The notes below the pieces were generated by a model that ran no database searches, was not told the DNA's origin, and saw only the letters and a program-made list of their open reading frames with translations. This document shows positions 3,857 through 36,931 of a stretch of DNA of 36,931 bases, piece by piece. The translations under genes and the position numbers were made by a program. This DNA is from a virus: the IMG/VR virus record IMGVR_UViG_3300029448_006719, positions 1 to 36,931 of that record. One strand, written 5' to 3'. Position 1 is the first letter of the stretch, and every line of letters begins with the position of its first letter.

Positions 3857-4544
3857 CATTAGAATTAAAATGCAATATAGCGTCTTCAAAATCACTATAA
3901 TAATTACGTCCTACGTTTATCTTATATTGTTTAGCATATATTTTATGTTTTTTTGGATGAGACTTCATAATCCAATGGGGTGGAAAATATTTAAGTTTCA
4001 TATTACTTTTAACATTCTCCCATATAAAATTTTGCACACCATATCTAGGTTTTGACACATAATTATTATTAAAGTAATATTGTTGCCAATATTGAGGGTT
4101 ATCAAAATATTTTAAGTAAATATGTTTACATTGATGTGATTTAAACTTTATAAAACTATCATGCAATTCACATTTATCATCTAATTTAAAATTTTGCCAA
4201 TTACGATAGATTGCAAGAAACTCTTTATTTTTTATGGGATATGAAATCATTGGTGAAGGTTTATAATTCCAACTTACATCAATATCCATATAAATTGTTT
4301 CGTCACCCTCTTTTGCATTTATGAAATGACCATTAAAGAAGTTCATCATATTCCAATGAATATGTTTATTAATATTTTCCTTAGATAAAGGAATAATATT
4401 AAATTTAGGATCTAAACCCTTTTCATCTTCTGTATAACAATGAAACTTAACATTACGTATATCCTTTGTCAAATCATTGAGTAACTCTGTTATAGATTGA
4501 CCAAGAAGTGTTTTGCCAAACTTAACCGTACAAAAGTGTATCAA
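3852..4544 (-). CDS. Probable GT-A-type glycosyltransferase
   Basis: 230 residues. The N-terminal pattern (VKFGKTLLGQS, then KFHCYTED) and a DxD-type motif in ETIYMDIDVSW near residue 88 resemble the nucleotide-sugar-binding part of GT-A glycosyltransferases. The rest is rich in aromatic and Lys residues with no motif I recognise. Translation must begin at the TTG at 4544, since no ATG lies near, and it overlaps the PIG-L deacetylase gene by 23 bases, so the two are probably translationally coupled. The neighbours (deacetylase and methyltransferase) suggest a sugar-decorating module. The fold call is tentative. Confidence 0.5.
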   Translation of the reverse strand: MIHFCTVKFGKTLLGQSITELLNDLTKDIRNVKFHCYTEDEKGLDPKFNIIPLSKENINKHIHWNMMNFFNGHFINAKEGDETIYMDIDVSWNYKPSPMISYPIKNKEFLAIYRNWQNFKLDDKCELHDSFIKFKSHQCKHIYLKYFDNPQYWQQYYFNNNYVSKPRYGVQNFIWENVKSNMKLKYFPPHWIMKSHPKKHKIYAKQYKINVGRNYYSDFEDAILHFNSND

Positions 4545-5127
4545 GTTTAAATACCTCCACTTTTTCTGCTCCGGTATACATTCCCTTATACTCAGATAAA
4601 AGATTTACACCTTTTACATAATCTTTTGACAAATTTTTATATGCTAAAATTGCGTCTTTTTTTTGATTGTGGTATTTTGATACATCTACATAGACATTTG
4701 ATTCAAAAGTTTTATACTTTTGACAATAAGGATATACCATCATATACCATACATCAAAATTTTTATTTCTTTTTAGAGAATTACCTAGATTATGGCAAAA
4801 ACGATGATCTTGATGCCAGTCTTCATGCCAATGTGTAATTAACAAATCGTAAGATGACATATCTATTGTAGATTCTATTTCTGCAATTACATTACTGGTT
4901 GGAGATTCGTCTCTATGTTCTAAATAAATTGGATTAAAACCCAAAATCTTAGATGACGTTGGTACAAATTTTTTGTGTGGAACATTTGAACATAGAATAA
5001 TGTTATCCACATGTACTCCCTCATTTACAAATTTTGCAACCGTTCCTCCACATGATAATTCTAAATCATCTGGGTGTGCCGATAATACAAGTACTTTAGA
5101 ATAATGTTTCAAGATATAAGTCCTCAT
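4522..5127 (-). CDS. PIG-L/LmbE-family deacetylase
   Basis: 201 residues with the family's zinc-binding signature near the start (LSAHPDDLELSCGGT, residues 16-30, with His18, Asp20 and Asp21) and the second motif HWHEDWHQDHR (residues 99-109), supplying the distal metal-ligand His. This family removes N-acetyl groups from N-acetylglucosamine-containing substrates such as GlcNAc-PI, mycothiol precursors or antibiotic sugars. It overlaps the methyltransferase gene upstream by 32 bases and the glycosyltransferase-like gene downstream by 23. It probably acts on an amino sugar of a glycan, either a virion decoration or a host envelope precursor. The family call is strong; the substrate is unknown. 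Confidence 0.88.
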   Translation of the reverse strand: MRTYILKHYSKVLVLSAHPDDLELSCGGTVAKFVNEGVHVDNIILCSNVPHKKFVPTSSKILGFNPIYLEHRDESPTSNVIAEIESTIDMSSYDLLITHWHEDWHQDHRFCHNLGNSLKRNKNFDVWYMMVYPYCQKYKTFESNVYVDVSKYHNQKKDAILAYKNLSKDYVKGVNLLSEYKGMYTGAEKVEVFKLDTLLYG

Positions 5128-5647
5128 TTAATATAGAATAGTTTTCAAACTGTCCTGTTAATAATATATGCGAATATACCTTTTTAGGTGCATGTTTATT
5201 AATCATTTCTTCCCACCATCGTATTGGTTTAATAGTACAATGAGCATTTTCCCCATTTGGTAAGATTGCCATCGCAGGGTCGGTAGCGATTGCAAAAAAA
5301 ACAAACTTATTTGCTCTTTCATAAATTTGTTTGATAACACCAGGCACTTCGTTTTCTGGTATGTGTTCCATGACATCACAACAAAAAACACCGTCATATT
5401 GTTTGTTTGGAATTTCTGAGTATTCTTCAATCGCAGGGTCATATAAGTCTGGCATCATTCCAAACTTTTCTGCAAGATTTACCCTTTTGTATATTTTTGC
5501 TTTTCCACAACCAAAGTCTAATAATGATTCTGATTTTGTATCATCAATTAGACCTTTAATTTGATTATAATAAGAAAGGATCATCTGGCCATCGCCATAC
5601 CCTCCTACTTGTTTATGATATATCTTGTATTGTTCTATCGTCATCAT
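5096..5647 (-). CDS. Class I SAM-dependent methyltransferase
   Basis: 183 residues. Motif I is LLDFGCGKAK (about residues 42-51), followed by an acidic motif II region (PDLYDPAI) and a motif IV-like CCDVMEHIPENEV, the arrangement of small-molecule methyltransferases of the UbiE/Methyltransf_11 type. Two ATGs stand in tandem at 5647 and 5644 with a GAGGA just upstream. It overlaps both neighbours (nuclease-like gene upstream, deacetylase downstream). The context suggests methylation of a sugar or other small metabolite. The superfamily is clear; the substrate cannot be read from the sequence. Confidence 0.8.
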   Translation of the reverse strand: MMTIEQYKIYHKQVGGYGDGQMILSYYNQIKGLIDDTKSESLLDFGCGKAKIYKRVNLAEKFGMMPDLYDPAIEEYSEIPNKQYDGVFCCDVMEHIPENEVPGVIKQIYERANKFVFFAIATDPAMAILPNGENAHCTIKPIRWWEEMINKHAPKKVYSHILLTGQFENYSILNEDLYLETLF

Positions 5648-5969
5648 GTATCCTCACAAAGTAATCTGCATCCACAACTATAAGTGGTTTATGATTATTC
5701 TTTTTAATAACTACTATGGGTTCATAGTCTTTTGAGTTTTCAGTTGCTTGTTTATATGATTCCCAAATATTGAGTTTCTCTTGATTTTTACACTCTATCG
5801 AATAAGGAAATTTTTCTCTAGCAGCACGAGCCATGATAAGGTCTTCCCCACCTGCACCCATACTCCTAGATTCTATATCTTCAGAATGAATATTTAATTT
5901 TTCAATCAGTAAATCACGAAACCATTGTTGTAATCTACGACCTTTTGCTTTGGCCGATTGTGTTTTCAT
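5613..5969 (-). CDS. Small PD-(D/E)XK nuclease, Holliday-resolvase-like
   Basis: 118 residues. The core has a basic helix (KAKGRRLQQWFRDLL), then SRSMGAGGEDLIM with Asp43, and YSIECKNQE with Glu59-x-Lys61, giving the D...ExK metal-binding pattern of PD-(D/E)XK nucleases. The size and the early 'GRR-x-E/QQW' helix recall Hjc-type resolvases. Its ATG overlaps the stop of the upstream zinc-ribbon gene (ATGA). A role in recombination, junction cleavage or host DNA degradation would fit the adjacent nucleotide metabolism genes. The catalytic pattern is visible; the exact activity is inferred. Confidence 0.65.
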   Translation of the reverse strand: MKTQSAKAKGRRLQQWFRDLLIEKLNIHSEDIESRSMGAGGEDLIMARAAREKFPYSIECKNQEKLNIWESYKQATENSKDYEPIVVIKKNNHKPLIVVDADYFVRIHDDDRTIQDIS

Positions 5970-6115
5970 TCATCAATTTCCTCTTCATAATATTCTTCAT
6001 TATCTTGTTGGTAACCACAGAATGGACAATATTCTATTGGATAATAGTTCTCGTCCATGCTGTGCTTTATCTCATATGTAGCTTCGCATTCTTCACATAA
6101 GATTCTTGTTTTCAT
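5966..6115 (-). CDS. 49-residue zinc-ribbon-like protein
   Basis: A short ORF, MKTRILCEECEATYEIKHS at its start, with two Cys pairs (CEEC near residue 7 and CPFCG near residue 32) spaced as in a zinc ribbon, and an acidic tail (EEYYEEEIDE). It is linked to both neighbours: its ATG overlaps the NrdB stop (TAATG) and its TGA overlaps the nuclease ATG (ATGA). Such ribbons often bind nucleic acid or a polymerase, but nothing more specific can be said. The overlaps and Cys spacing make it a real gene. Confidence 0.72.
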   Translation of the reverse strand: MKTRILCEECEATYEIKHSMDENYYPIEYCPFCGYQQDNEEYYEEEIDE

Positions 6116-7428
6116 TAGAATAGTTCCTGTTGTTTCTTTTCTTCTTCAAGTACACATGTACCTTCATCATGGTCACAATTTAAATGAGCATTTGGATCAT
6201 CATATGCAACTTGCCACTCACCTGTCAAACCTGCAACTTCATATTCAGTTACACGATTCTCGAAGAAGTTTGTGTGATCGGCTGCATTTAAAATCCACTC
6301 TAACCATGGAATTGGATTATCTTTTACTTTGAAGTTTGTTTTTAGACCAAGTTGTAATAATCGTCTATCTGCAATATAACGAATATATTGTTTTACATCT
6401 TCTTTAGTTAAACCTTCTGGTTCACCCATTCCGTATGCTAAATCAATAAACTTATCTTCAAGTTCTACAACTTTTCTAGACATCTCATAGATTTCCTTTT
6501 TCAATTCATTATCTACGAGAGACGCATTTTCTGAACAGAATGCTCTGAATAAATGAGCAATACCTTCTACGTGCATTGATTCATCTCTTACTGACCACTC
6601 TACGATTTTACCACATCCTTTCATCTTACCGAATCTTTGGAAGTTTAGTAACATCACAAAAGATGCAAACAGTGAAATACCCTCGTTAAATACTGATTTA
6701 GCAAGTGCTAGCGCCATGCCTTTCTTTGTACTTACGTTAGAATTCATCATGAAGTCAACTTTGTCTGCCATCTCTTGATATTCTAGAAATGCATGAAACT
6801 CTTCATCAGGTAGTCCTAAAGTTTCATTTAATAATGCATATGCTCTTTGATGTATTCCTTCTCTTGAAGCAAATGATCCAAGCATATTTCTTATCTCATT
6901 ATTTTTAAATTTAGGTAGAAACTGATCATAGTAGTTTTGACCAACTGCAACATCTGATTGAGTAAAAAGTCTAAGAACATGAGTAACATATTCCTTTTCG
7001 ACTTCGGTCATCTTTCCACCTTTCCAATCAGTTACATCTTCAGATAAATCAACTTCATCTTCAATCCAATGCACCTTTTCATGTTTTTGTACAAACTCGA
7101 CAGCCCAAGGATAATAAAATGGCTTGTAAGTTTCAGAGAACTTGTATAGTCCACCACCACGTTTTTTTAAAATCTTTTCTGAATTCTCTAATAATTGAGC
7201 ATATCCACCGATTCTTTCACCATTAACAAAGATTTGAGGAACAGACATAATTGAACTTACTTTACTACCAAGTCTTTCTTCAACATTATTCACTCTTTGG
7301 AAAAATTCCATTTTTTCATCTTCATTCACTAAGGAATGTTCGGTATATTCGATACCATGTTCCTTAAACCAATTTTTTGCATTTAAGCAATAGCCACACG
7401 TTGGCGTTGAGTATATTTGTACGTCCAT
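6115..7428 (-). CDS. nrdB: Glutaredoxin-ribonucleotide reductase beta subunit fusion
   Basis: 437 residues in two parts. Residues 1-90 are a glutaredoxin with active site CGYC (11-14), cis-Pro in SVPQIFVNG and the GGYAQL glutathione-site loop. Residues 91-437 are a class I NrdB with the full di-iron/radical set: Asp159, Glu190, His193, Tyr197 (REGIHQRAY), Glu249, Glu283 and His286 (RDESMH). Keeping the Tyr makes it a tyrosyl-radical enzyme. It supplies deoxynucleotides by partnering the NrdA 12 nt upstream, and the fused glutaredoxin could re-reduce NrdA directly. AAGGAG lies just before the ATG. The fusion is read directly from one uninterrupted frame. Confidence 0.96.
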   Translation of the reverse strand: MDVQIYSTPTCGYCLNAKNWFKEHGIEYTEHSLVNEDEKMEFFQRVNNVEERLGSKVSSIMSVPQIFVNGERIGGYAQLLENSEKILKKRGGGLYKFSETYKPFYYPWAVEFVQKHEKVHWIEDEVDLSEDVTDWKGGKMTEVEKEYVTHVLRLFTQSDVAVGQNYYDQFLPKFKNNEIRNMLGSFASREGIHQRAYALLNETLGLPDEEFHAFLEYQEMADKVDFMMNSNVSTKKGMALALAKSVFNEGISLFASFVMLLNFQRFGKMKGCGKIVEWSVRDESMHVEGIAHLFRAFCSENASLVDNELKKEIYEMSRKVVELEDKFIDLAYGMGEPEGLTKEDVKQYIRYIADRRLLQLGLKTNFKVKDNPIPWLEWILNAADHTNFFENRVTEYEVAGLTGEWQVAYDDPNAHLNCDHDEGTCVLEEEKKQQELF

Positions 7429-7440
7429 TTCTTTCTCCTT

Positions 7441-9204
7441 TTATCCTTGACAAGAGACACATTCTGCCTCTTCTTTTGCTATGTCTGAGTAGTCTTTTAA
7501 TTTATCTAGTTTTACTTTTTGAGAGATATTCTCTGCTCTTTTCGAAACTTCAGTCCTTAAATAGTAAAGACCTTTACACTCTGTTTCCCATGCTCTCATA
7601 TGAACAGATTGTACATACTTTTTAGAAGCACCTGCTGGAAAAAATAAATTTAGTGATTGTCCTTGATCAAGATACTTTTGTCTTTGACCTCCCAACTCAA
7701 CTAATCTCATTTGATCTAATTCAACAGCAGTTTTAAAAACCTTTTTTGTATTTTCATCTAAAAATTCTAAGTGTTGAACAGAACCATTGTTTGTTACGAT
7801 TCCTGTCCAAACTTCAGATGTGTTCATCTTATGATCTTCAAGAACTTTTTCAAGAAATTTATTTTTGATTAAGTGTGAACCTGCTCTTGTTCGATGAGTA
7901 TATGCACATGCTTTGTTTGGCTCAATAGATGGTGATGTTCCAACAATCATTGAAGAATTAGCATTAGGGGCAATCGCCAGACAGTGTGCATTACGTCTTC
8001 CTGTTCCCTTCATATCTGGTGCTTCTCCTTTTTCTTTTCCAAGAATCAATGTTTGAGCATCTGCTTCACTTCTCATCCATGAAAAAATTTCTTTGTTAAT
8101 ACGACCAGATTCTTCAAATGGTATCATGTGTTTTTGTAAATATGAATGATAACCCATCGCACCTAAACCTAGACTTCTTTCTTGTTGTGCTGAATATCTT
8201 GCACGACTAATTTCATCACCTGCATGATCAACGAAGAACTGTAATACATTATCTAAAAATGTGATCAAGTCTCTTACGATTGTTGTATCTTTAAACTCAT
8301 CATACTTTTCTAAGTTCAATGATGAAAGACAACAAACAGCAGTTCTGTCTTCACTTGTTGGTAAATGTATTTCATTACAAAGATTTGAACCATGTATTTT
8401 TAATCCCTTTTCTTTTAGTGATTTTGGCATATATTTGTTTGCAGTATCAATAAAGTTAACATAAGGTTCACCTGTTCTAAATCTTGTTTCTAAAATTTGT
8501 TCCCATAATTTTCTTGCCTTCACTGTTTCTCTAACTGTGCCATCGTTAGGATCAATCAATTGCCAATCTAAATTCTTTTTTACTGCATTCATAAATTTGT
8601 CTGTTACATTTACTGCATTATGTAAATTCAAACACTTTCTACCGATGTCACCTGTTGGAATACGTATTGTCAAGAACTCCATAATATCTGGGTGTGATAC
8701 ATCAAGATAAGCTGCATAACTTCCTTTTCTGGTTTTACCTTGTCGATATGCAATCATGTCTGCATCAACTGTATGCATGAATGGAATCGGACCAGGTGCC
8801 ATGTCTGAAACAGAACGTACATTTGACCAATGACCTCCTACTCCACCACCCTTTACAGATAACCATCTTAATTCAGATGTGTGATCAATCAGTCCGTCTA
8901 GAGAATCTGGTACATATGTTAAGAAACAAGAAATCGGTAATGCTTTTGGTTTTTTATTTGGTAATGGTGCATTAGATAAAACAGGGGAAGCATACATAAA
9001 CCAACCTTGAGATGCATAATCATAAATTCTTTGTGCAAGTTTAATATCACCATAACAGTAAGCATTAGCAGCTCTCGCTAGTGCGTATTGTGGAGAGGGT
9101 TCGTCTTTAAGACAGTAGTAATCTTTTAAAAGTTTTTGTGCTTGGTCTGTAAAATTTTGATCTCGATCTGTATCAATTTTAATATTGCAATATTGTTTTT
9201 TCAT
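7441..9204 (-). CDS. nrdA: Ribonucleotide reductase class I alpha subunit without ATP-cone
   Basis: 587 residues. The catalytic triad is in SNLCNEIHLP (Asn274, Cys276, Glu278), the redox Cys pair is Cys93 (PISCF) with Cys291 or Cys292 (AVCCLSSLNL), the radical-transfer Tyr pair is 547-548 (GLYYLRT) and the C-terminal shuttle is CVSC (582-585). The protein starts almost at the ten-helix domain, so the roughly 90-residue ATP-cone of E. coli NrdA is missing and dATP inhibition through it should not occur. That suits a phage needing unrestrained dNTP synthesis. A GGAGAGG precedes the ATG. It is cotranscribed with primase upstream and the Grx-NrdB gene downstream. Confidence 0.97.
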   Translation of the reverse strand: MKKQYCNIKIDTDRDQNFTDQAQKLLKDYYCLKDEPSPQYALARAANAYCYGDIKLAQRIYDYASQGWFMYASPVLSNAPLPNKKPKALPISCFLTYVPDSLDGLIDHTSELRWLSVKGGGVGGHWSNVRSVSDMAPGPIPFMHTVDADMIAYRQGKTRKGSYAAYLDVSHPDIMEFLTIRIPTGDIGRKCLNLHNAVNVTDKFMNAVKKNLDWQLIDPNDGTVRETVKARKLWEQILETRFRTGEPYVNFIDTANKYMPKSLKEKGLKIHGSNLCNEIHLPTSEDRTAVCCLSSLNLEKYDEFKDTTIVRDLITFLDNVLQFFVDHAGDEISRARYSAQQERSLGLGAMGYHSYLQKHMIPFEESGRINKEIFSWMRSEADAQTLILGKEKGEAPDMKGTGRRNAHCLAIAPNANSSMIVGTSPSIEPNKACAYTHRTRAGSHLIKNKFLEKVLEDHKMNTSEVWTGIVTNNGSVQHLEFLDENTKKVFKTAVELDQMRLVELGGQRQKYLDQGQSLNLFFPAGASKKYVQSVHMRAWETECKGLYYLRTEVSKRAENISQKVKLDKLKDYSDIAKEEAECVSCQG

Positions 9205-10265: not shown

Positions 10266-10892
10266 CTATTTGCCTTTAAAAATCGGATATCGATTTACAG
10301 GCTGATAATGATCCCAATTTTTCTTTTTTGGTTTTTGATCTTTTACCCTTACAAAATTCTTTAAACCCATTTTTGCTTTGTCTGGTGTCATATAATAGTG
10401 ATAACCTACAGTTTTAATATCTTGTTTCCACCAAGCAATATCAGATCTTTCTCTACCATCATAAGCCATCTTTCTTAATAATGATGCATCTTCTTCATTA
10501 TCTAAAAGTATCATACCCCCTCTATCAGTAGATAAATGTTTACTGTATTGAAAACTTAAACACATTCTTGTATTTGGTTTGTAACCACCCTCTTTCCAAT
10601 AAACAGCGGCATCAACAGTTGTTTGAGTTATGTGATAATAACCTTCCCATTTTTCCTCATTAAAACTCCAATTTAAACCTAACTTATCTAACATAATCGG
10701 CACACACAGATAAGTGTAAATTGGAACTTCAACTTTGTTTGACATGTGTGGTTGTTTAAGATATTCTAAACGTAAACTTAATTCTAAAGCATTTGTACAA
10801 CAATCAGTTGCCACACCATATGGTGCATTAAAAAACTCTGCAATAGTTTTTTCAAATTTTATAACAGGTTCGTTTCTTGTATATTCGTCCAT
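10266..10892 (-). CDS. Mini DegT/DnrJ/EryC1-family PLP aminotransferase
   Basis: 208 residues, little over half the usual 370 or so. The PLP-fold core is present: FFNAPYGVATDCCTNALEL (phosphate-binding N-terminal helix), VDAAVYW with Asp94 for the ring nitrogen, and SFQYSKHLSTDRGGM with Lys118 as the likely Schiff-base Lys followed by the conserved GG. The C-terminal small domain is largely missing. Family members aminate keto-sugars bound to nucleotides. It overlaps the radical SAM gene upstream by 34 bases, so the two are made together. It may be a compact active aminotransferase or may need a partner. The frame is intact, so this is not an obvious pseudogene. Confidence 0.82.
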   Translation of the reverse strand: MDEYTRNEPVIKFEKTIAEFFNAPYGVATDCCTNALELSLRLEYLKQPHMSNKVEVPIYTYLCVPIMLDKLGLNWSFNEEKWEGYYHITQTTVDAAVYWKEGGYKPNTRMCLSFQYSKHLSTDRGGMILLDNEEDASLLRKMAYDGRERSDIAWWKQDIKTVGYHYYMTPDKAKMGLKNFVRVKDQKPKKKNWDHYQPVNRYPIFKGK

Positions 10893-11911
10893 TTATAGTA
10901 CTCCATAGCATGATTAAACGCATCTAAAAATCTTTCATCACCAGGCATAGGTTCAATTTCTTTTTGTTTTTTCAATTCTTTTTCAATTGAACTATTTATT
11001 ACGTTTCCTAAGATATGTCTATCTGATCCCTCTCTATCAATAAATGCGGCTTCAAAATAACAGTATATATCACCTCTAGGATCAATTGCAATTTTAATTT
11101 GAGGTGATTGTTTTTTTGTTAGTTGTTTATAGTTTACACATAATAATTTATCTAATTTACCTTCAAGTAATGCCAATAAAGCATAACCATAATCAATTTT
11201 TAATGAATTATTTTTTGCCTTTATATCAAACTCAATAATTTTGTCTCTTAATTTTTGTCTATCATCAATAGGATATTGAAAAGAAAAATCCTCTCGTAGT
11301 GATAATGTATCAACACCACCTATCTCATCTATGTAATTTAAAATGTTATTTAAGTTTTCAAAGTCTGAAGGTAATATGACATGATTAACATGTAATGGTG
11401 GTTTTTTAATATTTAATTTATTATAGTCTTTTAAATTTTTTTTAACAACACGATATGCTTTTTCATTTCTAGTTGTTGATAAGGTTTGTTTTTCATCATA
11501 CCCATATAATGAAATACGAAAATGATCCACGGTTAATAAGTTAGGATTTTTTTCTATAAACTTTGGTGTTAACATATAACCATTTGTGATTAATCGAGCC
11601 TTATAACCCCTATCATTTAATTCTTTACAAAGTCTATCTATTTCTCTATATGTTAATGGTTCTAATCCACCACCTATATTATATCTATATGGATTATCGC
11701 CGGGGTCTTGATCAAAGAGAGTATCATAAAAATATTCATAATTAGGCTCTACTGCATCATAATTACGTCCACAAAAAGTACAACTAAACATACAACTAGT
11801 GCCAGGAAATAAATTAATATTTTTGGGAAATTTATAAACACCATCTATAGCGGCTTGCATATGACCACTATCAATGAAAGGTTGTATTGTTTTTAAATAT
11901 GCCGGGTGCAT
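10859..11911 (-). CDS. Radical SAM enzyme, possibly DesII-like
   Basis: 350 residues. The 4Fe-4S motif is GTSCMFSCTFCGR (Cys40, Cys44, Cys47), followed by a GGLEPLT motif for SAM amine binding and a TIM-barrel-like alternation (ARLITNGYML, FRISLYGYD, HVNHVILPSD). A late IAIDPRGDIYCYFEAAFIDR segment with a single Cys follows. There is no obvious second cluster. Pairing with a DegT aminotransferase is the arrangement of DesII/DesI-type deoxyamino-sugar routes, so sugar deamination or epimerisation is plausible. It starts at an ATG 6 nt after a sigma70-type -10, without a Shine-Dalgarno. The superfamily is certain; DesII-like is a guess from context. Confidence 0.88.
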   Translation of the reverse strand: MHPAYLKTIQPFIDSGHMQAAIDGVYKFPKNINLFPGTSCMFSCTFCGRNYDAVEPNYEYFYDTLFDQDPGDNPYRYNIGGGLEPLTYREIDRLCKELNDRGYKARLITNGYMLTPKFIEKNPNLLTVDHFRISLYGYDEKQTLSTTRNEKAYRVVKKNLKDYNKLNIKKPPLHVNHVILPSDFENLNNILNYIDEIGGVDTLSLREDFSFQYPIDDRQKLRDKIIEFDIKAKNNSLKIDYGYALLALLEGKLDKLLCVNYKQLTKKQSPQIKIAIDPRGDIYCYFEAAFIDREGSDRHILGNVINSSIEKELKKQKEIEPMPGDERFLDAFNHAMEYYKWTNIQETNLL

Positions 11912-11917
11912 TAAAAT

Positions 11918-11946
11918 ACTATAACAAATTAGTTTTAAAAAGTCAA
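11918..11946 (-). promoter_or_regulatory. Sigma70-type promoter for radical SAM/DegT pair
   Basis: TTGACT at 11946-11941, a 17-nt spacer and TATAGT at 11923-11918 on the minus strand. The -10 ends 6 nt before the ATG at 11911, the same geometry as at 10234 and 15294. The -35 overlaps the stop of the coiled-coil gene upstream. It would start a short unit of the radical SAM and aminotransferase genes. Confidence 0.68.
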
Positions 11947-12386
11947 GAAAAAGTTATACCAATATTCATCATTTTGTGTATGATAAATCCTAAAACTATA
12001 GATCCACCTATTAATAACCATCTAAATTTATCTAAAACTGCTACACGACCAGTCAAATCTTGTTGTAATCTAGATATTGATTGTGATTGTTCATTATGTT
12101 GTTTAGACATTAGAGACGTAAGCTCTTTATTATTGACTGTAATACGACTATGCAAATCTTTTATTTCGTTGTTAAATTCTGATCTTCTTTTTTCAAGTAA
12201 TTCATTTGCACCTAAAATTGCTTCCTCTTGAGAAGACAACTTTTCTTCATGAACTGCTAACATGCGATTAATAGAATTTGAAACTTCAGAAATTTTTTCT
12301 ATTGCATTATCTAATCTACCATGAATTAATTTCATATCTCTAACTTCTTTTTTTAAAACTTCAATATCTGTTTGAAAATCTGACAT
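11943..12386 (-). CDS. Tail-anchored coiled-coil protein
   Basis: About 147 residues from the ATG at 12386, almost wholly heptad-like coiled coil (DIEVLKKEVRDM, AIEKISEVSNSINRML, EIKDLHSRITVNNKEL, SISRLQQDLTGR) and ending in a single membrane segment (FRWLLIGGSIVLGFIIHKMM). I chose the inner start because a frame from 12443 would overlap the upstream gene heavily, while the ATG at 12386 follows its stop by 4 nt and lies exactly 5 nt after a perfect TATAAATA box. It is probably an inner-membrane protein with its coiled coil in the cytoplasm. No family recognised; it could be a membrane scaffold or a superinfection or lysis modulator. Confidence 0.68.
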   Translation of the reverse strand: MSDFQTDIEVLKKEVRDMKLIHGRLDNAIEKISEVSNSINRMLAVHEEKLSSQEEAILGANELLEKRRSEFNNEIKDLHSRITVNNKELTSLMSKQHNEQSQSISRLQQDLTGRVAVLDKFRWLLIGGSIVLGFIIHKMMNIGITFS

Positions 12387-12390
12387 AATA

Positions 12391-12996
12391 TTATTTATAA
12401 TAATCCTTTGTTCTATTTGCTTTCTCTTGATTCCAAAACTCATTTGGATATAAAAATAAAGTTGGCACGTTTAGTATTTTGGCAGTCACACTCCATGTGC
12501 AAGGTGATCCTAAATATAAGTGACTTTGATGTAATTTTAAAAATTTTTCGTAAATCTCTTCTTTTGTGCCGCCTCTTGAATTTCCTAAATCTACCCCTCG
12601 TAAATATTTTAATAAAATATCTATATTTTCTTTTTTATGTATTCTATTATTTTTATTAAAATTGCCATGATTGTATAATTTATCGTGATTTATAATAAAA
12701 GAGTACGTCATGGTATTCATTTTTTTTACTTTTTTTTTAGGTCTACAATTAAATTTTCCTAAAAAAAATTCATTAGGTATTTTTGTGCCAGAAATTTGAT
12801 TATTATTTAAAATTTTAAATTTAGGTCTTTTCCATTCGCCATCCCAAAACAAAGACAATGCATCAAAATAGTTTTCGTATGTTTTTTCATCTGTTTGATG
12901 ATAACACACAACATCATCGTATTTGTATAAATTAGAAAATAGTTGCATGGCACCCCATAAACTACCATCTTTTGTTAAATAATCAGTATATAGCAT
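12391..12996 (-). CDS. Possible GT-B/GT9-like glycosyltransferase
   Basis: About 201 residues from the ATG at 12996; a TTG at 13023 would add 9 residues. The most informative part is the C-terminus: SHLYLGSPCTWSVTAKILNVPTLFLYP resembles the donor-site end of GT-B glycosyltransferases of the heptosyltransferase/ADP-glycosyl type (y-x-G-s-p-s..h-A..l-x-vPt). The N-terminal half (GMLYTDYLTKDGSLWGAMQ) fits the acceptor domain start of such enzymes, but the protein is short. It overlaps the radical SAM/SPASM gene upstream by 14 bases. The stretch is even more AT-rich than its surroundings, with long T/A runs, which suggests a variable island. Tentative. Confidence 0.45.
   Translation of the reverse strand: MLYTDYLTKDGSLWGAMQLFSNLYKYDDVVCYHQTDEKTYENYFDALSLFWDGEWKRPKFKILNNNQISGTKIPNEFFLGKFNCRPKKKVKKMNTMTYSFIINHDKLYNHGNFNKNNRIHKKENIDILLKYLRGVDLGNSRGGTKEEIYEKFLKLHQSHLYLGSPCTWSVTAKILNVPTLFLYPNEFWNQEKANRTKDYYK
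12392..12399 (-). promoter_or_regulatory. Perfect T4 late-type box TATAAATA, 5 nt before ATG
   Basis: TATAAATA on the minus strand is an exact match to the T4 late promoter. It ends 5 nt before the ATG at 12386, placing the expected start on the start codon, and no Shine-Dalgarno intervenes. It overlaps the last codons of the upstream gene. Confidence 0.5.
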
Positions 12997-13792
12997 TCCA
13001 ATATTCCACAGATTCCTTTCCAATCAATGTACCTTTTGCATTACAATTTCTACACGCATCGTTTATGTCTCTATTACCGCTTAATAATTCCTTTCTAATA
13101 TAATTATAAGTATCATTATTCCAAATTTTTAACATATGCTCTTTGTGTATATTTCCAAAGGAATCTTGTTTTCTTAACCAATCATTACAACATAATATTA
13201 AATCGCCATTCCAATCAATAATTATTTTATATGCAGTATAATAACAGGGGTTAGAATTAGATTCCTCAAACATTACTCCAGCCCTATTTGTAAAATTATA
13301 CTCATCATATCTATCTGAACCGTCATCAAAGTGTCTTCGTATTTTTACTTCATCATATTTTTTTTCTAATTCATAAAAATAAGGATTCTTATCATAATCT
13401 GATATTAAAATATTATTAACACCAGTTTTTATTATATCATCAGTCATTATTTTTTTGTCAAGACTATCACCATTTGTAATTACTTCTAAATTAAATTCAC
13501 TTAACAAAGAACAAATTTCTAGAAAATTAGGATTTAAAGTAGGTTCACCAAAACCACAAATAGATATTAATCCTTTGAAGTTTTTCAACTGTGATTTTAT
13601 AAGTTTCACAGTTTCAATACTCATATGTAGTTTTTGATTTGGATATACTGTGGGGTTGCTTCTTGGACAAAAGCTGCATTTACGATTGCAAAGTTCAGTA
13701 ATATTTAACTCTACTGTTGTTAATCCACTGAAACCTTCTGTTTGTTTATTTACAGATACACGATGTTTTAAATGTTTTTCAAAATGTGACAT
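12983..13792 (-). CDS. Radical SAM/SPASM-domain protein
   Basis: 269 residues. The radical SAM motif is TELCNRKCSFCPRS (Cys35, Cys39, Cys42), followed by ICGFGEPTLNP, the usual GGE/GEP SAM-binding strand. The C-terminal part holds a SPASM-like auxiliary cluster: CYY, CCNDW and CRNC. SPASM enzymes modify peptides, proteins or sugars. No precursor peptide is obvious nearby; the partners are a glycosyltransferase-like gene downstream and the lysis cassette upstream, so a glycan role is likeliest. The ATG follows the o-spanin stop by 6 nt. The family call is strong; the substrate is unknown. Confidence 0.88.
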   Translation of the reverse strand: MSHFEKHLKHRVSVNKQTEGFSGLTTVELNITELCNRKCSFCPRSNPTVYPNQKLHMSIETVKLIKSQLKNFKGLISICGFGEPTLNPNFLEICSLLSEFNLEVITNGDSLDKKIMTDDIIKTGVNNILISDYDKNPYFYELEKKYDEVKIRRHFDDGSDRYDEYNFTNRAGVMFEESNSNPCYYTAYKIIIDWNGDLILCCNDWLRKQDSFGNIHKEHMLKIWNNDTYNYIRKELLSGNRDINDACRNCNAKGTLIGKESVEYWNAIY

Positions 13793-32419: not shown

Positions 32420-32691
32420 GTAACTAGTCCACTCACGACTTCAGTATATGCTTTATTAATATTCTCATTCGATGGTGTTGCTAATATTACTCCACCACTT
32501 CTAAAAATTATAGACTTAGGATTTTCTTCACCTGTCATACAAACACCTCTCGCAAACCCCATTTGTCCGTTTTCTGTACTAACCATCATTTTTGGATTAC
32601 TAAGATGAATACCTGTTTCATCATTTTTTTCTAGTCTTCCAATAAATTCACCGTGGGGTGTTAGTACTGTTATTAAATCGCCTTGTTTCAT
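32416..32691 (-). CDS. Small Sm/LSm-like beta protein
   Basis: 91 residues. The first 35 ([19 protein letters not shown], then [11 protein letters not shown]) follow the Sm-fold pattern: a strand, a Gly-containing turn, 'G-x-l-x-x-x-d', then 'i-x-L-x-n', as in Hfq or LSm proteins. No RNA-binding motif is certain. It overlaps uvsX upstream (ATGA) and the next gene downstream (TTGA). It could bind RNA or be a small replication cofactor. The fold suggestion is low confidence; the gene is real. Confidence 0.62.
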
Positions 32692-33725
32692 TCTTCATCA
32701 CCTCCATATGAAAACTCTTTGTGTGCAGCTATTTCTAACTTTTCCATAATCTCATCTGTAAAATATGCTTGTGGATCATCATTAATAGTTTTTCCAAACA
32801 CTTTACGACCATCAGGTAGTTCATATTTTGTTGATACTTTTTTAAATATATCATACTTTTCTGCAAGTGGTAATAATCCATAATATTTGTCAAGACCTTT
32901 ATTATATGTCAGTCTTACCTCACAATTAGAATTTTCTTTTGTTAGTCTTGACTTTTGATTTTTTGCTTTAATGATATTTCCAATTACCTCAGTTCCGTCC
33001 TTTTCTTTCTTTTTTGAAAGATAAACAATACTAGATGCGGCATATTTTAAACCAGAACCACCACCCATTTCTTTCATAGGAACATAAGAACCAACAACAT
33101 CATAAGTGTGATTTGTTACAACCATTGGTACTTTTGCTTTACCAAGTTTTAAAGTTAAAATTCTAAATGCAGCCTTAAGTACTTGAGCTCTTGTCATATC
33201 TCTTGTCTCTTTTCCTTCAGAACTATCCTCGACCTCTTTTGTTGTTGATAACATTCCTAATGAATCAAGACACATAAACATCGGTCTTCTAATATCAACA
33301 TCTTGTTGCATATATCGATCTAAAACTTTAATTGCTTGTGTTCTAAATTCTTGCACAGTAGCTACAGGTAAAACTACCATTCTTGATGCATCAATACCTC
33401 TATCTGTAATCATTTTCTTTGTAATTGCTGATTCTGATTCAAAATAAACTACACCACCCTCTGGGTTTGCATCTAGAAAATGTTTACACATTCCCATTAA
33501 GAAAAATGTTTTACCTGTTGCTGATTCACCTGCAAGTGCAGTTATTTTATTTTGTGGAAGCCCACCTTTTAGTGATCCACTTAACATTGCATTAAAAATA
33601 TAAGAACCTGTATCAATAAAGTTTTCTACATCACCAGATTCTACTCCGTCTTCAACTAAATTTGCATATTCGTTTCCTGTTGTTTTAATTATGTCTTTTA
33701 AAAAGTCATTTGCATCTAATGTCAT
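32688..33725 (-). CDS. uvsX: UvsX, RecA-like recombinase
   Basis: 345 residues. Walker A is GESATGKT (66-73), Walker B lies in [12 protein letters not shown], and a [30 protein letters not shown] segment supplies loop L2 and the Gly-rich turn typical of UvsX/RecA. The C-terminus is acidic (GGDEE). It coats ssDNA for recombination-dependent replication. It is coupled by ATGA to the CmoA-like gene upstream and to the Sm-like gene downstream. Confidence 0.97.
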
Positions 33726-34429
33726 TTTATTGCTATTGCTCCTATAAAATTGTGATTACGCCAAAACACTTGTACGTCTTTGAAACCTGCTCTCTCTAAA
33801 TGATCTTTCAATTCTGGCCATGTGTTGGGTTTCAACATGTGTCTTAGTGTCTTTTCTTTATCAAGAATATCTTTGTCATCAAAGTGTTCTCTTTTGTGAT
33901 CATAGTACATGAAAGTCATCATGTCTTGAATATGTGCATTCTCAGAAAAGACTTTTTCAGAAAATACAAATGCACCACCAGGTATTAAACTATAATATAT
34001 TTCTCTTAACAAATCTGCTCTGTCTTTTTTTGGCATAAATTGTAAAGTAAAAATTGATGTAACAAAAGAGTTGACATCTTGACGCCATCTGTATTCTCTA
34101 ATGTCTTTTTGTAAAAAATTAACTAAATTATCCATATCGGGAAACATCGAATATAATTCTCTTAGTCTTTTATCCAAGTCTTCTTTAAATCCTTCAGCAT
34201 ACTCAACACCCTCATAACAAACAAATGGTTTGTGTTTTATATTTTCTTGCATAATTTGTTTTGTTAGTTTTCCTGTAGAACAACCTATGTCTAAGACTGT
34301 GGTATGTTCTTCAACGAAGTATCTTGAAAAAGAAACTACATCGTTGAGTAAATCTCTATAACCTCGAATAGATTGATCAATATGATTATCAAATCCTTCT
34401 TCTCTATGTGCAAAAGTAAAATCGTTCAT
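33722..34429 (-). CDS. cmoA: CmoA-like carboxy-S-adenosylmethionine synthase candidate
   Basis: 235 residues (E. coli CmoA 247). It aligns through most of its length with CmoA: IRGYRDLL (VPGYSNII), [12 protein letters not shown] motif I (residues 45-56), [27 protein letters not shown] (LLFNMHHDFKR), LERAGF and [11 protein letters not shown]. CmoA converts SAM plus prephenate to carboxy-SAM. E. coli Arg199, which contacts the carboxylate, falls in the segment DKEK here; alignment gives Glu or Lys depending on one gap. The gene sits between the DNA methyltransferase (TAATG overlap) and uvsX (ATGA overlap). It could alternatively be an ordinary methyltransferase. No cmoB is visible, so a tRNA role is less likely. 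Confidence 0.8.
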
Positions 34430-35565
34430 TATATATTCCTTAATACATTATTGTACATGGATTCTGCAAGTGCTTTCATCATTAATGATGGCACCATACG
34501 TCCACATCGTTCTGCTTTTTGTGCCCATTTCCCTGTTAACTTAAAATCATCAGGTAATGATGTCACTCTTTTTAATTCACCCAAAGTAAATTTTCTGTCT
34601 TCTTCCCAATGACACACTCCAGCAGTTTTTTCTGTAGCACCCATTGCTGTAATTGTTGGTGAAGGTTGAAACTGAGATGCAATCTTCAAATTAAAATGCC
34701 ATCCTTTTGGATGATAATCTGTTCCTGTAATTACTCTATCTGGGTTTCTTGGCATCAACACGCATGTTTGTTTGTAGTATGCTGTCTCTTTCCATTTTGT
34801 AGTAAGCATTTCTACTTCTTCTTTGTCATACTCTAATCCGTCAAATGCACCTTCTAATGTTGTTCTTGTTTTATTTTCTGTAGGAAAGATTGACGATAGT
34901 GTCATAAAATTTAATCCTACTTGATCCATAATATCATCTCTTACTGCCATAAAAAATACACGTCTTCTTGCTTGTGGAACTCCATACCAAGAACAGTCAT
35001 GTACTTTTGCAACAACTTGATATCCTATTTCTTCAAATGTATTTTGAATTTTATTAAAATATGTTTTTGCTTCTCCTACAGTAAGACCCTCAACGTTTTC
35101 TGCAATAATAGTCTTTGGTCTAATTCTTTCTGCAACACGTAAAAACTCAAAGAATAAATCTTCAATATTTTCTACTGTTTTTCCGTCTGAATATTTTTTA
35201 GTTTTTCCCCAGCCATCTGAATGAACTGTTCCTTCTCTGGCAAGAATACCACACATACTAAATGCTGAACAAGGTGGTGATCCGTCCAATAATTCTAATT
35301 CACCTTCTTTTAAACCTGTTGCATGTAGAAAGTCTTTACCTGTCAATTCTTTAATATCACCATCAAGAATAGTTGTGTATGGATAATTGTCTCTATAAGT
35401 ATTTCTTGCTTCTTCAACAAACTCATTGATTGCAAGAATTTTTCCACCTGCAAGACGATATCCTGTGGAACTGCCTCCACCACCTGCAAATGTAGATATG
35501 ACACGAAACTTTTTTAATGCTTCTGCATCATAAACATCTTTTAGTAAGTATGGTTTGTATTTCAT
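34429..35565 (-). CDS. C5-cytosine DNA methyltransferase with Arg in motif X
   Basis: 378 residues with the full set: motif I FAGGGGSSTGYR (26-37), motif IV GSPPCSAFS with catalytic Cys99, motif VI ENV (156-158), motif VIII QARRR (198-202), a target-recognition stretch (about 215-300), motif IX PSPTITA and motif X GRMVPSLMMKALAE (355-368). Motif X normally reads GN[SA]V; Arg356 replaces the Asn. In engineered M.MpeI an Asn-to-Lys change at this kind of position (N374K, from memory) enables carboxy-SAM use. With the neighbouring CmoA-like gene this suggests cytosine carboxymethylation. No paired restriction gene is visible. Confidence 0.93.
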   Translation of the reverse strand: MKYKPYLLKDVYDAEALKKFRVISTFAGGGGSSTGYRLAGGKILAINEFVEEARNTYRDNYPYTTILDGDIKELTGKDFLHATGLKEGELELLDGSPPCSAFSMCGILAREGTVHSDGWGKTKKYSDGKTVENIEDLFFEFLRVAERIRPKTIIAENVEGLTVGEAKTYFNKIQNTFEEIGYQVVAKVHDCSWYGVPQARRRVFFMAVRDDIMDQVGLNFMTLSSIFPTENKTRTTLEGAFDGLEYDKEEVEMLTTKWKETAYYKQTCVLMPRNPDRVITGTDYHPKGWHFNLKIASQFQPSPTITAMGATEKTAGVCHWEEDRKFTLGELKRVTSLPDDFKLTGKWAQKAERCGRMVPSLMMKALAESMYNNVLRNI

Positions 35566-36383
35566 ATGAAGTTTTCTAATGTTCCTTTATGTTGTACTAA
35601 CGTTGCCCAATCACGACATACGTCCATAATTCTTTTTCTATTGTATAGGTTTATATCCTTATTGTCAAGAAGTTTTTCAAAAATAATTGGTATCTCTGCG
35701 ACAAGTTGGAGGTTAAGGTGTTTTTTAAGTTTGAGATCATCAAATTCACTAAAATGTTGACGAATAAGATGTTTTTCATATGGTTTATTTATACCATCCC
35801 AATCAAATTGTATAAAATAATCAAACACTTCTTGATTGAGATATGGTGCAATCAGTATTTTATTATATTGTTTACCTAACATTTCTAACTGTCTTACACC
35901 TGCTGGATTTGGTGAGGAAAAATAATCTGTTCTAAATTGATCAAACTTTTCCTTTGTGTGTTTAAAATGTATCATCGCTTTTTTACTTAAACCATAATGA
36001 CCATCAGCGGCAACACCAGATATGATAACTTTTTCTTTTATCTTAGGAAACATATACAAAAATGGCCATGTACATTCAAAATGTACTTTCTTTTTACAAT
36101 CATAATTGTATGCCATTAACTTAAAGTCTTCAACTAAATTTTCAGTTGGTACTTCAATACTTGTAAATTTAAACCCAAACTTTTCACACACTTCTTGTGC
36201 CTTTAATGAATCATAAGTTGGATTTCCCTTCACATGAAAAGAATACCCATGTACATTCAATCCTAAACGATGAGAAGTAAATAAACATGTATTACTATCA
36301 ACTCCACCAGAAAGTAAAACAGCAACATCGTTTTCGTTTTGTCTTTCCTCATTAATAATCTTTTCTAATAATTTGTGTATCAT
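35562..36383 (-). CDS. Asparagine-synthetase-like ATP-pyrophosphatase (no glutaminase domain)
   Basis: 273 residues. The PP-loop is VAVLLSGGVDS (20-30), a second substrate-loop motif is IISGVAADGHYG (120-131), and APYLNQEVFDYF...KPYEKHLIRQHF (179-211) matches the AsnB synthetase domain segment PFLD...MEKHILRE. The N-terminal Ntn glutaminase domain of AsnB, with its catalytic Cys, is absent, so free ammonia or another amine would be the donor. Such enzymes adenylate a carboxylate and form an amide. Fused by ATGA overlaps to polymerase upstream and the methyltransferase downstream. A role in amidating carboxymethylcytosine is my hypothesis. Confidence 0.82.
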   Translation of the reverse strand: MIHKLLEKIINEERQNENDVAVLLSGGVDSNTCLFTSHRLGLNVHGYSFHVKGNPTYDSLKAQEVCEKFGFKFTSIEVPTENLVEDFKLMAYNYDCKKKVHFECTWPFLYMFPKIKEKVIISGVAADGHYGLSKKAMIHFKHTKEKFDQFRTDYFSSPNPAGVRQLEMLGKQYNKILIAPYLNQEVFDYFIQFDWDGINKPYEKHLIRQHFSEFDDLKLKKHLNLQLVAEIPIIFEKLLDNKDINLYNRKRIMDVCRDWATLVQHKGTLENFI

Positions 36384-36931
36384 GCAAAAAAGTCCTCTAG
36401 TGTTCCCTGTGTTCCATAAGTTCTATCAACAAACCAACCAATCTTTTCAATGATAAAGTTAAGTGGTTCAATAAATGACTTTTCAAATTGTAATTCATAA
36501 TCAACTTTAAAATCAAGTTGTTTTGGAAGTGTTGTAATAAATGATATGGATGATGATTGATAAATGTTAGGAAGTTTTAAATACAAGAATTTAATCTTGT
36601 CACCTTCTTGAATTAATGGATAGTAACTTGAAAGTTTATTTTTTTCAACAAGATGATTGTAAAGTATTCCACCCTTCACATGTATTGGTGCTCCCTTTTT
36701 GAAAAGAGTATGTGTTTCAGACCATTTCTTTAAACCATTGACACTTCTTGGATATGCAATGTCTTCTGGTGGAAGTGTGAGAAATTCTTCACGAAAGTTT
36801 TTGATAAAAGTATTTAATTCTTTCTCATCACCAGACATCATAATTTTCAATGCCTGTTTAATTTTTTCACGACATGCCGCAGGTGTTGATGATTTAACTG
36901 CCTCGATTCCCATGATTTTCAAAGTAGGTTC
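36380..36931 (-). CDS. 43: DNA polymerase gp43 (family B), C-terminal part, start beyond window
   Basis: The frame is open to the right edge; 183 codons are visible. The segments GIEAVKSSTPAACREKIKQA, PRSVNGLKKW, KKGAPIHVKGGILYNHL, EGDKIKFLYLKLPN and FEKSFIEPLNFIIEKIGW are the palm end and thumb of T4/RB69-type family B polymerases, and TLEDFFA at the end resembles a clamp-binding tail. The 5' part, with exonuclease and palm Asp motifs, lies outside. An apparent start at 36922 is an internal TTG within the frame and should not be taken as a gene start. The ATGA overlap joins it to the AsnB-like gene. Confidence 0.93.
   Translation of the reverse strand, partial: EPTLKIMGIEAVKSSTPAACREKIKQALKIMMSGDEKELNTFIKNFREEFLTLPPEDIAYPRSVNGLKKWSETHTLFKKGAPIHVKGGILYNHLVEKNKLSSYYPLIQEGDKIKFLYLKLPNIYQSSSISFITTLPKQLDFKVDYELQFEKSFIEPLNFIIEKIGWFVDRTYGTQGTLEDFFA

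Follow-up and report, generated by a model that had tools for sequence, protein, structure and literature searches.

The gp43–uvsX interval and its gene content

The DNA analysed here (hereafter the window) covers positions 1–36,931 of the IMG/VR virus record IMGVR_UViG_3300029448_006719, read on a single strand, and is a fragment of a T4-like marine phage. It possesses primase, NrdA/NrdB, baseplate, tail fibre, replicative helicase, uvsX and gp43 genes. Among isolates, its UvsX is closest to that of Methylophilales phage Melnitz (77%), followed by Pelagibacter phage HTVC008M (70%). Three intact open reading frames of 273 (cmoY), 378 (cmoX) and 235 (cmoA) codons occupy positions 33722–36383 of the minus strand, between gp43 and uvsX:

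36380–36931, minus strand: gp43 DNA polymerase, C-terminal part (phrog_262, positions 674–851 of 856); flanks the cassette, not a member
35562–36383, minus strand: cmoY-like gene, 273 aa, predicted ATP-dependent amide ligase without glutaminase (SpCmoY 47.1%; PP-loop SGGVDS)
34429–35565, minus strand: cmoX-like gene, 378 aa, predicted DNA cytosine C5-carboxymethyltransferase (SpCmoX 60.3%; PDB 8YF3)
34498–34500, minus strand: motif X Arg codon CGT (R356, in GRMVP), aligned with SpCmoX Arg350
33722–34429, minus strand: cmoA-like gene, 235 aa, predicted carboxy-SAM synthase (S-B43 CmoA 54.9%; TIGR00740)
32688–33725, minus strand: uvsX recombinase (phrog_97, 7e-89); flanks the cassette, not a member

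Neighbouring genes overlap by 4 nt (gp43/cmoY), 4 nt (cmoY/cmoX), 1 nt (cmoX/cmoA) and 4 nt (cmoA/uvsX). The initial annotation had described three overlapping genes in this interval with an Asn_synthase PP-loop domain, a C5 DNA methylase domain and a CmoA-like domain; reading frame positions, overlaps and family matches, the latter far above chance level, bear out the arrangement, and profile matches the domain calls. Only the C-terminal 180 aa of gp43 lie inside the window, whose end interrupts the gene. A split polymerase beside the cassette was considered and rejected, as gp43 merely ends at the window edge and is whole in relatives.

The order gp43–cmoY–cmoX–cmoA–uvsX is seen again in many related viral contigs and is conserved within the window's own clade. 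Searching with the window CmoY retrieved 39 viral loci, in 31 of which CmoA and CmoX accompany CmoY on the fetched DNA. Three loci are truncated by contig ends (L004, L005, L021), another one (L038) has cmoA and cmoX on the contig of CmoY but at least 12 kb distant, and four (L033, L034, L037, L039) contain neither CmoA nor CmoX in their fragments. Locus L005 (positions 5001–6679 of IMGVR_UViG_3300029448_007288) is a near-twin of the window with an additional 293-aa gene (phrog_5931) between cmoY and cmoX. Its CmoY may be inactive, since eight residues are missing, the invariant K99 and E103 among them.

Far from the cassette, the window holds a cluster of two radical SAM proteins and an aminotransferase fragment at positions 10266–13792:

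10266–10892: DegT-type aminotransferase fragment
10859–11911: radical SAM protein
12983–13792: radical SAM protein with SPASM domain

CmoX and CmoA and their counterparts in phage S-B43

A natural carboxymethylcytosine pathway has already been published for Synechococcus phage S-B43 (December 2025; Yang et al., Nat Commun 2025, PMC12783734). In that phage CmoA produces carboxy-SAM (Cx-SAM), CmoX forms 5-carboxymethylcytosine at GC, and CmoY ligates glycine; biochemistry, a crystal structure and mass spectrometry of the phage DNA, which contains the glycine amide, stand behind the pathway. The same study surveyed 5,615 candidate CmoX sequences (PMC12783734), so the window is one more member of this group and a further relative of S-B43. 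Among the papers covered by our literature search, no second one on the CmoA–CmoX–CmoY pathway was found.

CmoX of the window matches the Pfam DNA_methylase profile (6e-49) and is 60.3% identical to SpCmoX of phage S-B43 over its full length (tblastn against phage records, where the best matches are S-B43 and its close relatives). Its best PDB match by phmmer is 8YF3 (E 7e-145), the next being M.HaeIII (1e-15). In that structure Arg350 of SpCmoX, aligned with Asn304 of M.HhaI, touches the carboxymethyl group, and Cx-SAM is the only donor that the wild-type enzyme uses (PMC12783734). The catalytic residues are intact: the SPPC motif (S96-P97-P98-C99, nucleophile C99) corresponds to S95-P96-P97-C98 of SpCmoX, and in the alignment the Cx-SAM contacts F26, E48, F49, D70 and R356 correspond to F25, E47, F48, D69 and R350. 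The protein therefore carries both features by which CmoX was searched for in the published survey, SPPC and Arg at the position of SpCmoX R350, and the motif X Arg noticed in the initial annotation is confirmed as R356 of GRMVP. SPPC, the R350 equivalent and the named Cx-SAM contacts are retained in all 20 full-length CmoX sequences aligned. Homology thus predicts that the window CmoX uses Cx-SAM and makes 5-carboxymethylcytosine. As cited in PMC12783734, the C5-methyltransferase M.MpeI N374K can likewise use carboxy-SAM because its motif X Asn has been exchanged for a basic residue; that enzyme is engineered and CG-specific, whereas the Arg of the window is a natural change, with CmoA and CmoY encoded alongside.

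CmoA is 54.9% identical to S-B43 CmoA over 99% of its length (tblastn against phage records, again with S-B43 and its close relatives as best matches). It matches phrog_4752 (1e-58) and the E. coli CmoA structure 4gek (2e-22). Two CmoA models are its best NCBIfam matches, both with scores under the equivalog cut-offs (TIGR00740: 4e-32, 112 bits against a cut-off of 193 bits). Equivalents of Tyr39, Asp62, Gly64 and Asp117 are retained, while E. coli Arg199 and Asn132 are not conserved, nor are they in the active S-B43 enzyme. The E. coli protein grips the carboxylate through an Arg199 salt bridge (PMC3663124). The window has E192 at this position and, a helical turn further along, R196 in place of the E. 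coli Glu, which looks like a charge swap inside one helix. The swap is common to all cyanophage-type CmoA proteins, including the active one of S-B43, which has a tenfold higher kcat than its E. coli counterpart (PMC12783734). Arg199 consequently does not discriminate in this clade, and we abandoned it as a pass/fail test of CmoA.

Taken side by side, the window and S-B43 share three full-length proteins, the catalytic Cys, the Cx-SAM contacts, the diagnostic Arg, a stand-alone PP-loop ligase, and overlapping genes in the replication region of a T4-like phage. They differ in layout, S-B43 having cmoA–cmoY–cmoX after the DNA primase-helicase gene and the window cmoY–cmoX–cmoA between gp43 and uvsX. 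The proteins are 47–60% identical, and the GC target is not assured for the window. SpCmoX modifies GC (PMC12783734); the recognition region of the window enzyme (residues 213–300, assigned to the stretch from motif VIII to motif IX) is just 39% identical to it, while the catalytic part reaches 71%, so the window enzyme may act on a motif other than GC. Dinucleotide bias was dropped as evidence on the target motif: the S-B43, S-CRM01 and RN05-S regions are poor in GC (odds ratios 0.63–0.74) and the window is not (0.96), a signal too weak to decide the target. The CG odds ratio of the window is low (0.60).

CmoY and related modification cassettes

CmoY is 47.1% identical to SpCmoY over 99% of its length (tblastn against phage records; best matches in S-B43 and its close relatives). 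The Asn_synthase match (1.6e-11) covers residues 3–129 only, the PP-loop SGGVDS is intact at residues 25–30, and, as in SpCmoY, the domain stands alone and adjoins CmoX and CmoA. Neither domain search nor sequence comparison found a GATase/glutaminase domain in the protein, which begins at its PP-loop domain. Five motifs are common to the window CmoY and SpCmoY: C-x-KK-x-HFEC, ADG-x-YG-x-SKKA, FDQFR, NKP-x2-K and H-x-NLQ. Identity to SpCmoY rises to 82% in the KK..FEC block, compared with 47% overall, and the invariant charged residues of SpCmoY are retained. An AlphaFold model (mean pLDDT 81, pTM 0.82) matches structures of AsnB (asparagine synthetase) and beta-lactam synthetase (E to 2e-9); it confirms the fold and leaves the amine undecided. 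A further PDB match, to 4mkm ('surface anchored protein'), was discarded as spurious because it consists of three weak repeats.

A ligase of a different kind is encoded by Streptomyces phage TurkishDelight (gp124). It shares the Asn_synthase domain with the window CmoY and also adjoins a CmoX-like methyltransferase and a CmoA-like gene, but it has an N-terminal glutaminase (GATase_6, GATase_7) and retains GEGSDE, both of which the window protein lacks, and none of the five CmoY motifs is intact. This fits the published description of a second, glutaminase-fused ligase cluster, for which use of ammonia has been inferred (PMC12783734).

Other phages depart from the three-gene set. Synechococcus phages S-CRM01 and RN05-S encode CmoA and CmoX, and searches of their complete genomes turned up neither CmoY nor any Asn_synthase match, hinting that they may carry bare 5-carboxymethylcytosine; RN05-S has a 25-nt gap where S-B43 has cmoY. 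Melnitz possesses, in the same gp43–uvsX slot, a C5-methyltransferase 38% identical to the window CmoX over residues 46–376. However, its motif X contains Leu (GLMVAP) rather than Arg, and it is followed by genes for a Tet_JBP dioxygenase and a protein resembling P-loop kinases. The Melnitz interval (MZ577097.1, positions 4010–8090) comprises the methyltransferase, the dioxygenase (PF12851, 3.6e-11), a 427-aa gene and the kinase-like gene, and looks like a cytosine hypermodification cassette of another type.

Predicted pathway and its alternatives

We consider it very probable that the three genes form a CmoA–CmoX–CmoY DNA hypermodification cassette, whose product would be 5-glycyl-carboxymethylcytosine. 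CmoA would convert SAM and host prephenate to carboxy-SAM. C99 of CmoX would attack C6 of the target cytosine and the carboxymethyl group would be moved from carboxy-SAM to C5, with R356 gripping the carboxylate, to give 5-carboxymethylcytosine in DNA. CmoY would then adenylate the carboxylate with ATP and join it in amide linkage to a small amine, of which glycine is the most likely. The resulting 5-glycyl-carboxymethylcytosine, or another amino-acid amide, would shield the phage DNA from host restriction and nucleases. The sequences themselves establish which genes these are, that their catalytic residues are intact, that they overlap and that they keep occurring together. Carboxy-SAM synthesis, carboxymethyl transfer and glycine ligation are here predicted from homology to the S-B43 enzymes; protection is suggested by analogy with SpCmoX-treated DNA, which resists HhaI (PMC12783734). 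The first two steps agree with the initial annotation, in which CmoA supplied carboxy-SAM to a motif X Arg C5-methyltransferase making 5-carboxymethylcytosine, a proposal that homology to the characterised enzymes upholds.

The final step is where readings diverge. The initial annotation favoured AsnB-type amidation to 5-carbamoylmethylcytosine, in which the cassette is unchanged and CmoY uses ammonia. Membership of the Asn_synthase family and the resemblance of the model to AsnB structures agree with this, as does the ammonia assignment in the published survey, although that concerns a different, glutaminase-fused cluster (PMC12783734). The absence of a glutaminase domain and the motifs in common with SpCmoY led us to rank ammonia behind glycine and other amino acids; in both similarity and motifs, CmoY is nearer to the glycine-using SpCmoY than to the TurkishDelight ligase, and we regard the ammonia reading as improbable. 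The original wording, 'or another amide', still covers a glycine amide. Attachment of an amino acid or amine other than glycine by an otherwise unchanged cassette deserves somewhat more credit but is still unlikely: 47% identity to SpCmoY leaves room for an altered pocket, yet CmoY keeps the motif blocks of SpCmoY as well as its invariant charged residues, and the KK..FEC block is conserved well above the protein as a whole. Glycine is most likely the amine, judging by the overall similarity to SpCmoY.

Domain-level annotation alone (DNA_methylase, Methyltransf_25) would lead to a simpler picture, in which CmoX just makes 5-methylcytosine, the CmoA-like protein acts in host tRNA modification, and the ligase is unrelated. 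This we find hardly credible: the motif X Arg and every Cx-SAM contact are conserved, wild-type SpCmoX accepts only Cx-SAM (PMC12783734), and the three genes are repeatedly joined across loci. Within the preferred carboxymethylation pathway, the diverged recognition region and a ligase 47% identical to SpCmoY lead us to speculate, tentatively, that the clade modifies a short motif other than GC, uses some non-glycine amine to cap the carboxymethyl group, or does both, which would represent an undescribed pattern or base.

These results place a predicted carboxymethylcytosine pathway in the conserved gp43–uvsX slot of a T4-like clade of marine phages. Judged by UvsX, the isolates closest to this clade have Methylophilales and SAR11, not Synechococcus, as hosts. 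As Melnitz carries a different modification cassette there, the slot looks like an exchangeable DNA-modification module. The window also adds a diverged set of enzymes with which target motifs and the choice of amine may be compared.
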